Shown: positions 7,421 through 13,112 of the stretch, one piece after another
Layout: each line of letters begins with the position of its first letter
Position numbering within the stretch: position 1 is the first letter of the stretch
DNA from: a virus
Virus record (IMG/VR): IMGVR_UViG_3300027851_001173
Span: 1 to 22,256 of that record
Reading direction: 5' to 3' (one strand)
DNA: 22,256 bases
Made by a program: the position numbers and the translations under genes
The notes under the pieces: model-generated
Databases searched by the model: none
Seen by the model: the letters and a program-made list of their open reading frames with translations, nothing else
What the model was told of the DNA's origin: nothing

Positions 7421-7697
7421 GGAGCACCTCCGGTTTGGTTTCGGAGATGCGGTGCAGCAAGGCGTTCAGGATCTCGGGAGACGGAACGCGGATGGCCTGC
7501 CCCAGCGTGCTGATGATGAAGCAGCCATCCGCGAGGTCGAAGCGGTATTGCGCGCTCAGATCACGACCATGCAGCCGCATCTGAACGTCGCAGATGAATA
7601 CCACCTGGTCGATCGTTGTTTCGCTTGGGGCGTCAAATGACACGAACTCGATGGGCAGCAGCGACAGGCGCTTTGGCACTTGGTTGTCGGCGCTCAT
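7404..7697 (-). CDS. hypothetical early protein next to B
   Basis: A 97-residue protein dominated by predicted strands: RLSLLPIEFVSFD, TTIDQVVFICDVQMRLHG, YRFDLADGCFIISTLG. A helix SPEILNALLHRISE follows near the C-terminus. The ATG at 7697 overlaps the stop of B (TGATG); a GTG three bases earlier is also possible. It is the first gene after the transposition pair. No family is recognised. Confidence 0.6.
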   Translation of the reverse strand: MSADNQVPKRLSLLPIEFVSFDAPSETTIDQVVFICDVQMRLHGRDLSAQYRFDLADGCFIISTLGQAIRVPSPEILNALLHRISETKPEVLHAQTH

Positions 7698-8419
7698 CAC
7701 TGCACCCCCGCCAGGTCATCCAGGCCGATGCTTTCGAGCGCACGGGTCTTGCTCAGTTCGCCCAGGGCATGCAGCGTCGTGACGATCTTGCGGGCGATGC
7801 CACCGCTCTTGTGCAAGATGGCCTTGCGGGCTTCTGGTTCGATCTTCAGGCCGGGCACGTAGTGCGCCACCAACTTGGTCAGGTCGCTGTCATCTGCGGG
7901 CATGGCGCGGGCCCAGACCAGGACGCGGTCATGGAAGCGCTCGTGCTTGCTGGCCAGCTTGCGCTTGAGGTGCTCTTCGCCGACCAGCAGGATGGGCACT
8001 TGGCCGATGTCGTGCAGGTCGCGCAACATCTCGATGGTGTTCTTCTCGGCGACCCGATCGGCCTCGTCAACAACCAGGGGCCGACCCTGCTCGCCGAATT
8101 GGGTGCAGGCCATCTCGAACATCATGCCGATGGACCAGTGGTCCTTCGCGGGGGCGCCCAGCTCGCGCAGGATCATGGTGATCAGGCTCTTCGTGGTCTC
8201 GAATGAGCGGCAGGCCACGTAGACGCTGTTGATGTCAGCCGGGTGGGCCAGGCGTGTGAGCGCGCTGGTCTTGCCCAGGCCGGGGGCGCCAGACAGCACG
8301 CCGATGCCAGGCATGCCGTGCTGGCGGTTTTGCAGTTGGTCCATCGCAGCCATGGCCATTGCCACTGTCTGCGTTGGGGCTACACCCGTTCGGGTGTTGT
8401 GTTGAGGGTTGTTGCTCAT
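7697..8419 (-). CDS. B: transposition protein B, AAA+ ATPase (MuB family)
   Basis: A 240-residue AAA+ ATPase. GAPGLGKT (about residues 44-51) is the Walker A and LVVDEAD (115-121) the Walker B motif. The C-terminal third carries helices ending in SGGIARKIVTTLHALGELS. In Mu, B forms ATP-dependent filaments on DNA, selects target DNA and delivers it to transposase A. This protein is clearly shorter than Mu B (about 310 residues) and seems to lack the N-terminal helix-turn-helix appendage. ATG 8419 is preferred; a GTG at 8425 would add two residues. It lies 76 bases after the A gene, separated by a plus-strand terminator. Confidence 0.9.
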   Translation of the reverse strand: MSNNPQHNTRTGVAPTQTVAMAMAAMDQLQNRQHGMPGIGVLSGAPGLGKTSALTRLAHPADINSVYVACRSFETTKSLITMILRELGAPAKDHWSIGMMFEMACTQFGEQGRPLVVDEADRVAEKNTIEMLRDLHDIGQVPILLVGEEHLKRKLASKHERFHDRVLVWARAMPADDSDLTKLVAHYVPGLKIEPEARKAILHKSGGIARKIVTTLHALGELSKTRALESIGLDDLAGVQ

Positions 8420-8451
8420 ATACACTCGTTTCTGTTTTCTGCGTTACGAAC

Positions 8452-8495: not shown

Positions 8496-10682
8496 TCAGT
8501 CGCCCCCGCCTTGCGCGGCAATGGGGTCGGTGCCTTGATGCAGGCGGTCCATCGCTCGCCACTCAGCACTGGTGCTGAAGCTGGCAAACCATGTCTTTTC
8601 AGCAGGCGTTAAGGCCTGCCCTTGTTGGGTACGCGCTTGCATGCGCAGCCACGCCGAATAGCGGGCGTTGGGTGTGTTGGAGACGCGGAACACCTGGGCG
8701 GCTGGCGCGTCGGTGCTCTCCAGGCGAGCCATGGCGGCGCGCACGGCCTCCACCTGGTGGGACGGCACCTGAGGCGCCTTGCGCTGGGCCCGGCCTTCCA
8801 GGCCGTTGATCGCCGATTCAATGGCCGGTGTGGTGCCCAGGCTCTCGCGCACCGGCAGGCGCTGGACCTTGCCGTCTGATCGCTCGATTGCGGCATGCTC
8901 ACGGTCGAGGTAGACATCGCGCACGGCCTTGTCCGTGTCATAGGCCTTCTGCGCGTGCTTGATCGCGCTCTTGAACTCGGCCAGGACCTTGCGTTGGTGA
9001 CCCTTGCGCTTGGCTGCAACCTCTTGAGCGCTGACGCCCAGCCGACTGATGTCGGTGGCCACGCACATGAACGAGCCGTCGAGGTTGAACACATAGACCT
9101 CGCCGATCTCATCCTCGGCGATCCGGCAACGCACCTCCAGGCCCTCACGCCCGCCCAGCTCGGGGGCGGTGTACCAGCCGTTGTCGATCCGGATGCCCTT
9201 CTTGGTGATCGTGCTGGTCTTGTTGACCGACACGGGCGAGAGGAACAGGTCCAGGGCGCGCGTATCAACACGCACGATCTCGCGAAGGTGGGCCTGCGTG
9301 TGGGCGTTGGGGCTGACGCCCAGCGTGCCGTGCTTGGCATCCAGGTAGTCCGACACCCAGTTGTCAATCATGGTCTGCAGGTGATCCGGTGTCAGGCGCA
9401 GCTCGACTTGCTGGCCGATCGCCTTTTTGCCGCACAAGCGCTGGGCAAAGCTCTTGGCACTTTCGATGGCCTTGCGGTCCACCACGCTGTGTCCGACGAA
9501 TCCCGTCAGCAGGGGGAACAGGCTGTGCAGGAGTGAGCCGAAGACGCGCTCAACAAAAGGCTTTTGCTGGGGCTGGAATGGCTCACACAGCGGGTGGCTG
9601 ATGCCCAGTTGCACCAGGGCGAATTCGAGCAGGTCAGCCACGTAGTCCGACCCGTTGTCGGTCTTGATGGACTCGGGCTTGCCCCAGGCGTCCATCGCGC
9701 GGCGGATCAGCGCGGCAATGGCGTTGGCCTTGGATGTGCGCGTGACCAGGAACATGACCCGGCGTGTGAACACGTCGATCACGGCAATGATGTGGTGACG
9801 CCTGACCTCGCCGGTCTCGGGGTCGAACAGCATGCAGTCGCCGACCGTGCTGTCCATCTGCCATTCCTGGTTCGGGCGGGTGATGTGCGCGGCGGCATCG
9901 CCGCTGGCTGACAGATAGCTGGAGCGCCAGGCGTCCGGGTTTGTGTGCGCCAGCCAGGCCTGCGCGTTGTCGGTTTTGAACGCAGTGAATGCGCGCTGGA
10001 AGGCCCGTTCCGAGGGGATCAACTCGAAGGGCACCGTGCCTTCTTTGATGAGCAGGTTGCGCACTGCTGTGGCGGACAGGTGCGGTTTGCTGGACAGCAC
10101 GGCCAGGGCTGCGGTACCGACCTCGCCTGATAGGGCCGCGAACTTGCCGCGACTGGGGTGCGCTGGGCGCACGAGACTGCCGCGCGCCTGCATGTCAAGC
10201 CACCAGCGGCGCAGGGTTGGCGCGGCCAGCTTGGGGATGGCATCACGCAGGGCCTGCGGCACATCGGGGATCAGGCCTGATGACCACAGGAATGCGAACT
10301 GTTCCAGCGCGGGGTGCAGCTTGCCGCCAATGGCCTGCCACCAGCGCTGGAAGATGACCAGCACGCGGGTGCGTTGTGCGTCGGCCTCTTTCATGGGACG
10401 CGCGGGGGCGTCAACGATGAAGGCGGTGCGCTTTGCCAGGGCTGCGGCTGCGTCGGACATCGGCGCCGTGTCTGTGGACACGGCGAAGCGCGCGGCCAGC
10501 GCCAGGCGGGCCTCGGCGGGCAATGTGCTGGGGTCATAGCGCACGAGCAGGCCGCCCCGCACGGGCTCAGTGGAGCACGTCCACCCTTCGATCAGCGCGC
10601 GCTTGCGGATGCCCCGGTCTGTGCCGGGCAAGCCGGGCAGGCCTGCCAGGTCGCGGGCTGTGGGCCAGGTGTGATTCGTCAT
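8496..10682 (-). CDS. A: DDE transposase A (MuA family)
   Basis: A 728-residue transposase that binds phage ends and catalyses strand transfer, both for integration and for replicative transposition. The N-terminal 65 residues (TWPTARDLAGLPGLPGTDRG onward) match the Mu-type winged DNA-binding domain. The catalytic core has WQMDST (Asp277), KTDNGSDY (Asp342) and KPFVERVFG (Glu378), the DDE triad. The C-terminal beta-barrel-like part (near 480-560, TKKGIRIDNGWYTAPELGG) matches the MuA C-terminal domain. The tail is basic and Ala/Gln-rich, fitting interaction with B. The frame is open upstream to 10826, but the ATG at 10682 overlaps the stop of the preceding gene and starts the family N-terminus. 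Confidence 0.95.
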   Translation of the reverse strand: MTNHTWPTARDLAGLPGLPGTDRGIRKRALIEGWTCSTEPVRGGLLVRYDPSTLPAEARLALAARFAVSTDTAPMSDAAAALAKRTAFIVDAPARPMKEADAQRTRVLVIFQRWWQAIGGKLHPALEQFAFLWSSGLIPDVPQALRDAIPKLAAPTLRRWWLDMQARGSLVRPAHPSRGKFAALSGEVGTAALAVLSSKPHLSATAVRNLLIKEGTVPFELIPSERAFQRAFTAFKTDNAQAWLAHTNPDAWRSSYLSASGDAAAHITRPNQEWQMDSTVGDCMLFDPETGEVRRHHIIAVIDVFTRRVMFLVTRTSKANAIAALIRRAMDAWGKPESIKTDNGSDYVADLLEFALVQLGISHPLCEPFQPQQKPFVERVFGSLLHSLFPLLTGFVGHSVVDRKAIESAKSFAQRLCGKKAIGQQVELRLTPDHLQTMIDNWVSDYLDAKHGTLGVSPNAHTQAHLREIVRVDTRALDLFLSPVSVNKTSTITKKGIRIDNGWYTAPELGGREGLEVRCRIAEDEIGEVYVFNLDGSFMCVATDISRLGVSAQEVAAKRKGHQRKVLAEFKSAIKHAQKAYDTDKAVRDVYLDREHAAIERSDGKVQRLPVRESLGTTPAIESAINGLEGRAQRKAPQVPSHQVEAVRAAMARLESTDAPAAQVFRVSNTPNARYSAWLRMQARTQQGQALTPAEKTWFASFSTSAEWRAMDRLHQGTDPIAAQGGGD

Positions 10683-10900
10683 CAGCCGCGCGCCCCAGCT
10701 GCTGTGCCGGACTTCAGACCGAGCAGGACGGCAGCGCGGTGGCATTCGCCGCGCTTGGCTGTGACCTTGGTCTGGCTCAAGACGCGGTAAGCGGCGCTTG
10801 GGTTCACGTTGTGGGCCTTGCACCACTCTGCGATCGACTCGCCGCGATCCTCAAAGGCCTTTTTCACCTGTTCGGGGGTCTTGATAGATTTGGTTTTCAT
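10682..10900 (-). CDS. ner: Ner-like small helix-turn-helix regulator
   Basis: A 72-residue DNA-binding protein, first gene of the leftward operon. SIAEWCKAHNVNPSAAYRVLS (about residues 22-42) is the helix-turn-helix, followed by KRGECHRAAVLLGLKSG, a pattern common in small regulators beside transposase A in Mu-like phages. In Mu, Ner represses both the early and the repressor promoter during lytic growth. Sequence resemblance is to this small-regulator family rather than to Mu Ner itself; the functional call rests on position and size. The stop overlaps the ATG of A (TGATG). Confidence 0.8.
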   Translation of the reverse strand: MKTKSIKTPEQVKKAFEDRGESIAEWCKAHNVNPSAAYRVLSQTKVTAKRGECHRAAVLLGLKSGTAAGARG

Positions 10901-10919
10901 GTCACGCTATGTCTGAGAA

Positions 10920-10949
10920 GTCTTAAGACAATGTACACAGTCTATAGAC
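10920..10949. promoter_or_regulatory. paired operators for the lysogeny switch
   Basis: Two perfect 10-bp palindromes: GTCTTAAGAC at 10920-10929 and GTCTATAGAC at 10940-10949, both flanked as AGTCTNNAGACA. Their centres are 20 bp apart, about two helical turns, so bound dimers would lie on the same DNA face. Extra half sites occur at 10911-10914 (GTCT) and 10953-10956 (AGAC). The location between divergent ner and repressor genes makes these the likely binding sites for the repressor, the Ner-like protein, or both. Confidence 0.7.
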
Positions 10950-10958
10950 ATTAGACAA
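10930..10958 (-). promoter_or_regulatory. candidate early promoter for ner-A-B
   Basis: On the minus strand, TTGTCT (10958-10953) as -35, a 17-base spacer, and TACATT (10935-10930) as -10. Each hexamer matches 4 of 6 consensus bases and the spacing is ideal. The right operator lies inside the spacer and the left one at the start point, so repressor binding would block the polymerase. No equally good pair was found for the rightward repressor promoter. Confidence 0.45.
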
Positions 10959-10981: not shown

Positions 10982-11599
10982 ATGGAAAACCCGAAAACAA
11001 CAGCCATCTTTGAGCGATTGAAGAAGGCGCTCAAAGTCGAAACGGACGGCGACCTGGCAGCGCGCCTCGGGCTTTCCTACCAGGCATTCAATAAGCGCAA
11101 GGTGCGCGGGTCCCTTCCTCGCGAGGAGGTCGAAACGCTCATTGACGAGCTGGGGCTGAACCCTGCGTGGGTGTATTCGGGCGAGGACCCGATGTATGAA
11201 GGGGGCGAGGCGCAGCAAAAACGAGAGCAGGACTACCGCGACCTGGTTGCGCAGATGACCGCCATGAGCTTGCACAATGAGACCAGGCGCGCGGTGGAGC
11301 CGCTGATCAAGGGCCTGGTTTGGGGTGACTCATCCAGCGTCGAGCGGTGGCTGGAAGATGTCGGTGGACTGAGCTCCGAGGAGCGCGTGATCGTGGCTGC
11401 GTATCGGGCCGGTGACGCCGATGTTCAGAACGCCATGACTCTCATTGCACAACGCGGGCCGGTGCCAAAGCAGAGTGGTGCAAAGATGAAATTCCACGCG
11501 CCTGTCACGCAAGCTGTAGGTGGTGACCTGATAACCCAGAGCAACACCTTAAATAACGCTGAAAGCGTGCCAACTCAGCGACGAAACCCCCGCAAATGA
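10982..11599 (+). CDS. c: phage repressor (CI-like N-terminal HTH)
   Basis: A 205-residue protein with an N-terminal helix-turn-helix (TDGDLAARLGLSYQAFNKRKVRG, residues 21-43) and the following ELGLNPAWVYSGEDPMY typical of the phage CI repressor domain. The middle (80-160) is helical. The tail contains FHAPVTQAVGGDLI (171-184), which resembles the N-terminus of the next gene product, and ends in basic residues (RRNPRK). There is no LexA-type Ser-Lys protease domain, so control is not by RecA-type self-cleavage. It starts 81 bases from the divergent ner gene, with both operators in between, and should maintain lysogeny by silencing ner-A-B. Unlike in Mu, it reads in the same direction as the late genes. 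Confidence 0.85.
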   Translation: MENPKTTAIFERLKKALKVETDGDLAARLGLSYQAFNKRKVRGSLPREEVETLIDELGLNPAWVYSGEDPMYEGGEAQQKREQDYRDLVAQMTAMSLHNETRRAVEPLIKGLVWGDSSSVERWLEDVGGLSSEERVIVAAYRAGDADVQNAMTLIAQRGPVPKQSGAKMKFHAPVTQAVGGDLITQSNTLNNAESVPTQRRNPRK

Positions 11600-11688
11600 G
11601 CGTGCTGTAAGTCCTCTGCAAATGGGCATGACGCCACTCAAAATGACTGAACAACAATCAGATAGAGCGTCACGCACAGGGAGGTATC

Positions 11689-12330
11689 GTGCGATCGTCA
11701 TTCCATGGCCCAGTGCAGCAGGTCGCAGGGCAGTCAATTCACAACAATCACTATCACCAGACCGAGCCGGGTCCAGATGATCATGACCACATGGCGCGCA
11801 AGTGTCCTCAATGCGGACGGCGGACCTGGATGCTGAACCGTCACTGCTATCACTGTCGTATGGATCTCCGTGCATATGACCGGCGTCTGCGCTTGATTGC
11901 GATCAGCAAGCGGGCGGGGATCTGGTTAGTTGGTGCGGCCATCGTCCTGACAATTGCTGCGCAGCCGTTGCAGGCTGCAGAAGCAAATTCGGCCAAAGTC
12001 AGTAAGGCAGCTGCGCTGCAGCTAGCGCGCGACATCGACGGTGCGCAACTGGGGTTGTTCTTGATGCTGACCAAGCCACCGGCTGGGGCAACAGCATCAC
12101 TGTCAAGGCGCGCCAATGCGTTGTTCGGATCGCCCGTCTTGAACCAGCCGTTTGCTGCGTGCGTCCAAGCAGCCAACTTTGCTGACGATGTGAAAAGTGA
12201 TGCACGTGCGATGCTGGCCTCTGGCAAGGCACCGGACGCTGCCCGCATTTCATCTCTTGCACGCGCCTCATATTTGCAAGGCGATGCATACAGGCGTTGC
12301 CGAGTTGAGATCGACGCGATGAAGGACTGA
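11689..12330 (+). CDS. membrane protein with zinc ribbon and repressor-like motif
   Basis: A 213-residue protein starting at GTG with a strong ribosome binding site (AGGGAGG, 5-6 bases away). The N-terminus carries FHGPVQQVAGQSI (residues 5-17), matching a motif in the repressor tail. A His/Asp-rich linker follows, then a zinc ribbon (Cys39, Cys42, Cys53, Cys56), and a membrane segment at about 76-95 (AGIWLVGAAIVLTIAA). The last 115 residues, after ...LQAAEA, are likely on the far side of the membrane and contain two Cys that might pair. Because it follows the repressor, it may be expressed in the lysogen. The function is unknown; sensing or superinfection exclusion is a guess. Confidence 0.65.
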   Translation: MRSSFHGPVQQVAGQSIHNNHYHQTEPGPDDHDHMARKCPQCGRRTWMLNRHCYHCRMDLRAYDRRLRLIAISKRAGIWLVGAAIVLTIAAQPLQAAEANSAKVSKAAALQLARDIDGAQLGLFLMLTKPPAGATASLSRRANALFGSPVLNQPFAACVQAANFADDVKSDARAMLASGKAPDAARISSLARASYLQGDAYRRCRVEIDAMKD

Positions 12331-12362: not shown

Positions 12363-13112
12363 TTGGAAAATGACAAGTTTGATTTCGATCCATTCAAGCC
12401 CTATACCGTTGATCAAATAAAGGGCGTGCATGTCACTCCAGAAAAAGGAGGAAATGAACTGCCTACACTTGGGTACCTACAAGCAGGCCTGAGTGATCTT
12501 TATCAAAAGACAAAAATATATGAGTACTACTTGCAACAGTACGAAGCCGCCAGTGGCAAAGGCACCCTGCAAGGGTTCGGCCTTGACTTCTTAGGTTTAC
12601 CAAACAACGGGGCACGTTTGGTCCCATGCTATTTTCACTGGTTTGGGACGTCCATAATCAACTACGCTCGGGTTGCGGGGTTCCTTGGTGGCATCGCCAC
12701 GAATTCGTTCTCCAGAGATGACCTAGAGACAAGCGCTGGAGGAAAGAAGATAAAGGATTATTGCGATAACTACTTGGAGGGCATACAAGAGCTAGATGGC
12801 GTGAGAGTTTGGAGAAATAAGATTGCAGCCCACTTCGCCATTACGGCCCCAAAGACGACTGGAACGGAAAGGGACAACCTTGCGTTGCTAAACCTAACCA
12901 CGATGTTCCCGATTGGCTTTTCAGGCAGTCGTTTTTTTGTTGGACAGACAGGACTCTCACACCACGACAGCGCTGGCGTAAAGCACTATGCACAACTGCC
13001 CCGATGGTCTCTCACCCAAGTTTATGAGTCATTGGTGCCTCGGTTTTTTTCTGACCCGCAGCAACTCCCAACCTATGTAAAGGTGCCACCAAGTCAGGTC
13101 TTAAGTAGTTGA
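12363..13112 (+). CDS. cargo gene with HEPN-like RNKxxAH motif
   Basis: A 249-residue protein in a stretch visibly richer in A and T than its neighbours, suggesting recent acquisition. It starts at TTG, supported by GGAGAG 6 bases upstream; no ATG competes near the N-terminus. The motif VWRNKIAAHF (residues 149-158) has Arg and His separated by five residues, inside a helical region, as in the R-x4-6-H motif of HEPN ribonucleases and related helical bundles. Also visible are FHWFGTSIINYARVAGF (91-107) and a conserved-looking end, LPRWSLTQVYESLVPRFF. A defence or toxin-like role is possible, but many proteins with such a motif have unknown function. Confidence 0.6.
   Translation: MENDKFDFDPFKPYTVDQIKGVHVTPEKGGNELPTLGYLQAGLSDLYQKTKIYEYYLQQYEAASGKGTLQGFGLDFLGLPNNGARLVPCYFHWFGTSIINYARVAGFLGGIATNSFSRDDLETSAGGKKIKDYCDNYLEGIQELDGVRVWRNKIAAHFAITAPKTTGTERDNLALLNLTTMFPIGFSGSRFFVGQTGLSHHDSAGVKHYAQLPRWSLTQVYESLVPRFFSDPQQLPTYVKVPPSQVLSS

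Follow-up and report, generated by a model that had tools for sequence, protein, structure and literature searches.

In the bacterial amyloid signaling sequences (BASS 1-10), the products of neighboring genes carry a common short motif, placed at the C-terminus of one protein and at the N-terminus of the other; the motifs fall into several classes and were found through likeness between gene neighbors (PMC8086366). By means of amyloid motifs that both carry, Bell/HET effectors are templated by NLR receptors. Here, we describe a motif that is shared in the same tail-to-head manner by phage repressors and the proteins encoded next to them. The exit of a prophage that lacks a cleavable repressor is poorly understood, and the pairing, which occurs in Mu-like and P2-like phages of Pseudomonas, Burkholderia and Escherichia, names a likely missing partner.

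The locus lies on a 22 kb IMG/VR phage contig, analyzed at its full length of 22,256 nucleotides (hereafter, the window), with a Mu/BcepMu-like early region from whose minus-strand genes the repressor gene is divergent (Table 1). The repressor gene and the early HTH gene on the other strand are separated by a stretch with two palindromes, which are likely to serve as repressor sites. The repressor matches Pfam Phage_CI_repr (PF07022) above the cut-off (E 3e-8; 34.3 bits, cut-off 22) and gives no Pfam match to Peptidase_S24, which the same search detects in phage Acica.

The gene that follows encodes the partner, in which Cys39, Cys42, Cys53 and Cys56 form a CxxC-x10-CxxC pattern. As there are 7 K/R before helix 76-94 and 3 after it, the N-terminus of this protein should be cytoplasmic. 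An earlier note on this DNA had called the product a zinc-ribbon membrane protein: the four cysteines and the single hydrophobic helix are present as described, and the ribbon itself finds a weak match among curated zinc-ribbon families. The C-terminal domain resembles the secreted protein of a related operon (L032; phmmer E 2.3e-6 against 6,540 ORFs, BLASTP 31% identity), where this homologue is encoded separately, two genes 3' of the tailed repressor. A search of the window partner for ORF6C or Ant domains gave no match. Further 3' of the partner lies a gene for a 249-aa protein (12363-13112), possibly a moron or defense gene; its likeness to HEPN/AbiU2 is very weak (E 0.29), and it matches no PADLOC model.

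Table 1. Features of the window in the early region and in the repressor and partner genes
Feature	Position	Strand	Evidence or remark
MuB-like ATPase	7697-8425	-	early region
Transposase	8496-10826	-	early region
Divergent BcepMu gp16-like HTH protein	10682-10900	-	phrog_925, E 1.5e-20
Two operator-like 10-bp palindromes, GTCTTAAGAC and GTCTATAGAC, 20 bp spacing	10919-10951	.	repeat search, sequence
Repressor, 205 aa	10982-11599	+	HTH of the Phage_CI_repr type at residues 9-72, then linker and motif at the C-terminus
Class-A motif in repressor tail, FHAPVTQAVGGDLI, residues 171-184	11492-11533	+	sequence, alignment
Shine-Dalgarno-like AGGGAGGT, just 5' of the partner GTG	11678-11685	+	sequence
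Partner, a 213-aa membrane protein with motif at the N-terminus, Cys4 ribbon, single TM and periplasmic domain	11689-12330	+	GTG start
Class-A motif at partner start, FHGPVQQVAGQSI, residues 5-17	11701-11739	+	sequence, alignment
Zinc-ribbon-like CPQC...CYHC, residues 39-56	11803-11856	+	sequence; weak Pfam matches
Predicted TM helix at residues 76-94, N-terminal side positive	11914-11970	+	hydropathy
Predicted periplasmic domain, residues 125-213	12061-12327	+	homologous to the separate secreted protein of the related operon L032

The earlier note had also reported a motif, FHxPVxQxxG, common to repressor residues 171-184 and the start of the partner, and we find it as described, at partner residues 5-17, with F, H, P, V, Q and G in register (6/10 identical). 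Within the window, the pattern F-H-[GAS]-V-Q occurs in the repressor and partner ORFs only. Local alignment of the repressor tail with the partner head scores 37, against a mean of 19.7 for shuffled sequences (z 4.6; 1/1000 shuffles), and when the tail is compared with the heads of all window ORFs of at least 60 aa, the partner ranks best (37; next 32). Pairing ORF tails with ORF heads throughout the window gives 18,566 combinations, of which 275 (1.5%) score 37 or more. Because this share of arbitrary pairs matches as well, the window pair alone is suggestive and no proof, and the case therefore depends on relatives; the pair is among the weaker matches of those that we collected. The same background is what speaks for a chance likeness of two short peptides, an explanation that is refuted by recurrence and to which we give practically no credence. 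In L040, which has the repressor most similar to that of the window (33% identity), the repressor tail ends in QTFHASVGQAAGRDVVNHGRGKGSKR and the gene downstream encodes a 2-TM protein that starts NQVYHGPVRQVAGRDIFN; the pattern recurs throughout. Searches of the viral and genome collections with single proteins of the window (repressor, partner, transposase) returned zero relatives; motif patterns succeeded.

Motif scans of viral contigs returned a recurrent layout, consisting of a short HTH repressor with the motif at its C-terminus and a protein of the same operon, usually membrane-anchored, with the motif at its N-terminus. Co-occurrence of the motif in adjacent repressor/membrane pairs, which the earlier note had proposed to look for, was thereby found repeatedly. 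We distinguish at least two classes, defined by a few patterns, and there may be more: class A (FHGxVGQVAGGDI, the window type) and class B (GxGNRVAGRDYxE). Many of the loci counted are close relatives, and TM calls are from hydropathy only. The DNA pattern for FH[GA]PVxQ[VA][VA]G matched 21 viral contigs, in five of which (three lineages) it encodes the N-terminus of a TM protein; in all five, the TM gene stands directly 3' of a short HTH repressor that ends in a version of the motif, for instance NFHGKVGQAAGRDIVNKKE in the repressor and then MNQEFHGPVEQVAGRDIIN in the partner (L004), or NFHSQVDQVAGRDVVNQGRRKK and then MTQEFHGPVDQVAGRDIVN (L009). Fifteen matches of the RFHAPVLQAAG type and one other were dropped, as their frames show no sign of a real gene.

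In every one of the 32 viral contigs matched by a second, wider pattern, FxxxVxQ[VA]AG[RGS]D[IV], the motif either begins a small, usually TM-bearing protein or ends an HTH repressor. When all ORFs of a locus are considered (15-102 ORFs each), the tailed HTH repressor from the partner's own operon has the C-terminus most like the partner head in 24 of 34 loci, the 10 misses being mostly visible motif variants or overlapping start calls. A reciprocal scan started from the repressor side recovered pairs too. Matches in the scan of genome contigs were mostly chance or antisense, with real ones in L066, L071, L074 and L108; named examples of class A are the Burkholderia phages KS5 (gp11/gp12) and AP3. 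Within class A, the repressor tail shows no preference for its own partner over other class-A partners, so specificity sits between classes.

Two loci have two motif-headed genes behind one repressor (L009:6316-6981, L074:2124-2759). The extra gene, third in L009 and second in L074, encodes an ORF6C-like body with no obvious TM, the match of the L009 protein to ORF6C being below the cut-off (E 1e-3). In L074, a spacing common to the tail of the repressor (VSGGVAGRDI) and the first of the two partners (VEGDVAGRDI) is absent from the second (VGQVAGRDI), hinting at a finer specificity inside class A.

The class-B pattern is present on at least 120 viral contigs. Among the matches listed and examined, near-copies included, the motif is N-terminal in 59, C-terminal in 47 and internal in 1. 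In Escherichia phage 520873, LNISGGNNRIAGRDYNETKGR is paired with MAVNSNGSNNRVAGRDFHE; in KS10, which has a third kind of motif, ASGSGITQVGSRVRI goes with ASGFGIIQVAGDLSI. A profile search with the class-B motif in the PDB found nothing. When classes are assigned by score against one reference peptide each, which takes in variants such as NKTAGRDY and NRTAGRDF, 62 of the 85 non-redundant pairs are B-B, 14 are A-A, none is mixed and nine are unclassified. Of these nine, five have class-A-like variants in the tail, one is KS10, and in three a B head has no B tail next to it. Two of these three (L191, L204) were inspected, and both have a repressor with a B tail one gene farther upstream. Homologues that occur apart and vary freely in the motif, which the earlier note had named as grounds for refutation, were looked for, and the outcome was the opposite.

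Among named phages picked by HTH similarity alone, the partner has the motif in 4 of 5 with a repressor tail (KS5, AP3, 520873, KS10, Komp_PAO1_1) and in 0 of 7 without one (Mana, PM105, Dobby, JBD25, Menos, Bise and the S24-bearing Acica), a small sample in which KS5 and AP3 are related (Fisher p 0.010). In Komp_PAO1_1 (L123:2875-3408), the gene following the tailed repressor encodes a secreted protein without the motif, and the tail is perhaps an orphan left after partner loss. The class-B repressor/membrane operon (L134:2501-3571) is also carried by 520 of 5,426 complete E. coli genomes (~10%), O157:H7 strains included. Its annotation there is only that of an HTH protein and a membrane or hypothetical protein.

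Residues shared between tail and head use the same codon at a frequency of 0.403, against 0.378 expected. Since this agreement does not go beyond what codon usage would give, selection acts on the protein, and DNA duplication as the cause is rejected by this test. More generally, the likeness could be a relic at the DNA level, left by a duplication or by a recombination boundary where the two genes meet; the motifs do flank the junction, often 73-87 nt apart. However, codon sharing shows no excess, and the pairs survive an intervening gene (L191, L204) and further motif genes (L009, L074), which leaves such a relic very improbable.

Exchange of modules and concerted switching of class are both seen. 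Identity between the L033 and L108 repressors is 28% in the HTH but 75% over the final 55 aa, and that between the two partners is 71%; the DNA-binding part has therefore been swapped, with the tail and the partner kept together. In a tree of the Flk-like partner bodies, a quick tree with several long branches, class A requires three changes, at least two of them forced by strong branches. The class-B members L150, L165 and L176 nest in a strongly supported group of class-A bodies, and the repressor tails upstream of them are of the B type.

A fusion found in Pseudomonas phage Gregale provides a further comparison. Its CI-like repressor has an HTH and an ORF6C-type body in one chain (ORF6C match above the cut-off), and this body is 40% identical to that of the motif-headed L009 partner. 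The fusion has no motif, its score being at the shuffled background; the motif is thus present when the modules are encoded apart, as two proteins, and absent when a single chain contains both. In Casadabanvirus (L265:2668-3471, L266:173-895), the end of the D3112 cI is S24-like by inspection, whereas Gregale has the HTH-ORF6C arrangement, and the C-terminal half of the repressor is exchanged wholesale.

These comparisons also bear on the idea that the motif is a common recognition tag for a third party, such as a host protease adaptor, a chaperone or a membrane complex, with no mutual binding of the two carriers. Mu-family repressor tails control ClpXP degradation, a precedent in favor of such a tag, and basic residues stand at the end of many tails in our set. 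If the tag served a host factor, however, it would be expected to be uniform among all phages of one host, whereas class A, class B and the KS10 kind exist and match within pairs, and the motif is missing when both modules are fused. We regard a third-party tag as distinctly improbable.

The partner bodies are diverse and not all homologous. They include 129-aa 2-TM proteins; proteins of 196-216 aa with a Flk-like helical domain and a C-terminal TM (NF007987, E 9e-16 and 6e-14), with pLDDT > 90 for most of residues 33-150 in the model of a Flk-like partner; and 250-aa proteins with an ORF6C-like region, a TM and a Cys-containing tail (PHROG 6521, “membrane protein”). Partners with a Cys4 ribbon and a TM occur in the window and in class B (L140, L163, L167, L172, L178, L201, L203, L216); a profile test of the window ribbon against these class-B zinc-ribbon partners found no homology, and the layout is alike. 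A fold search with one partner body in the PDB and BFVD gave no significant match. Phage partner bodies (L134:2921-3571, L033:3289-3879) have a domain in common with the flagellar regulator Flk, suggesting that the Flk domain may be of phage origin, or the reverse. In AlphaFold monomers, the motif is disordered in one partner (pLDDT ~41) and forms low-confidence strands in one repressor tail (~55), and such low predicted order would be compatible with folding on contact.

The main rival to the reading that we prefer is a repressor-gated membrane effector, acting in superinfection exclusion or cell killing, which the repressor tail would silence or whose assembly would be nucleated by repressors piled up on the operators of incoming phages. 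The gene geometry equals that of BASS pairs, with the motif C-terminal upstream and N-terminal downstream (PMC8086366). Many partners are tiny 2-TM proteins, and the low predicted order of the motif suits assembly on contact. Yet comparison of the partners with PADLOC defense models gave nothing beyond noise, many bodies are ORF6C- or Flk-like and not effector-like, and one of them is fused to a repressor HTH. We think an effector of this kind unlikely.

On balance, we favor a paired docking motif that would join a repressor without S24 to a membrane-held second subunit. Joint function is supported because the motif is confined to tails and heads, is class-matched, switches in concert and is missing in the fusion. 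In this sense, comparison lends strong support to the proposal that the two motif-bearing proteins have a joint role, and from it we infer contact between them and control of the repressor by the membrane. Direct binding of repressor and partner through the motif is likely, judging from the sequences. The N-terminal HTH of the repressor would bind operators, and its C-terminal motif would bind the like-class motif at the N-terminus of the same-operon protein, making a non-covalent, two-part regulator composed of a DNA-binding subunit and a second one, in most cases with an anchor in the inner membrane. The window partner would thus form a chain that leads from the repressor contact through the zinc ribbon and the TM to the periplasmic domain. 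The second subunit may set the state of the repressor, by membrane capture and release or by assembly on DNA. That membrane tethering alters repression is plausible, if a little short of probable. That the partner opposes repression is more doubtful: the ORF6C/Ant likeness of some bodies leans toward relief of repression, yet the Gregale body sits within a repressor.

The motif-tailed repressors examined (128-205 aa) have no S24, so RecA-driven cleavage is not available to them; S24 and a motif tail never occur together in the repressors inspected. Prophage induction would instead follow a membrane- or envelope-derived signal. We tentatively take such a signal, received through the partner, as the most economical alternative to cleavage, with a chance of being right that is a little below even. 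The arrangement suggests that the virus may wire its on/off switch to the cell membrane, and the 15-residue motif is a residue-level handle on the question of induction.

Compared with described systems, the phage pairs have the tail/head geometry of BASS and of the fungal/animal motifs (HET-s, sigma, PP, RHIM). The carriers differ, being phage repressors and membrane proteins instead of NLR/STAND proteins and Bell effectors: Pfam finds no NACHT/NB-ARC or effector domain in them and returns HTH, weak zinc-ribbon or ORF6C matches instead. Comparison of the motif with three published amyloid peptides (33 comparisons) gave a lowest p of 0.0065, which loses significance once multiple testing is corrected for. 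The phage pairs are not filed as BASS. A prion-like system, in which templated, amyloid-type pairing would connect the repressor to a membrane-spanning sensor of an envelope signal, with several classes insulated from one another, as a widespread and undescribed form of lysogeny control, seems to us quite unlikely.

Some partner bodies resemble ORF6C (PF10552) and phrog_245 Ant, as found in antirepressors. Antirepressors usually carry a Bro-N/KilA-N type domain where the partners have the motif; the partners, in contrast, are encoded in one operon with the repressor, and most have a membrane anchor. The bodies of 196-216 aa match residues 20-149 of Flk (RflH), a membrane protein restraining late flagellar secretion, and like it have a C-terminal TM, but the matches are below the equivalog cut-off, Flk is no phage regulator and the motif belongs to the phage pairs. 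With the S24 repressors of the LexA/lambda-CI kind, to which that of Acica can be compared by its S24 domain, the motif-tailed repressors have HTH lysogeny control in common and differ in being without S24. In the open-access literature, we found no paper containing the motif strings and none connecting amyloid signaling with prophage repressors; the paired-motif principle is known, and the system of phage repressor and membrane partner is absent from the open-access literature searched. If our reading is true, the neighbor-gene motif principle of immune signaling is used here to control a transcription factor.
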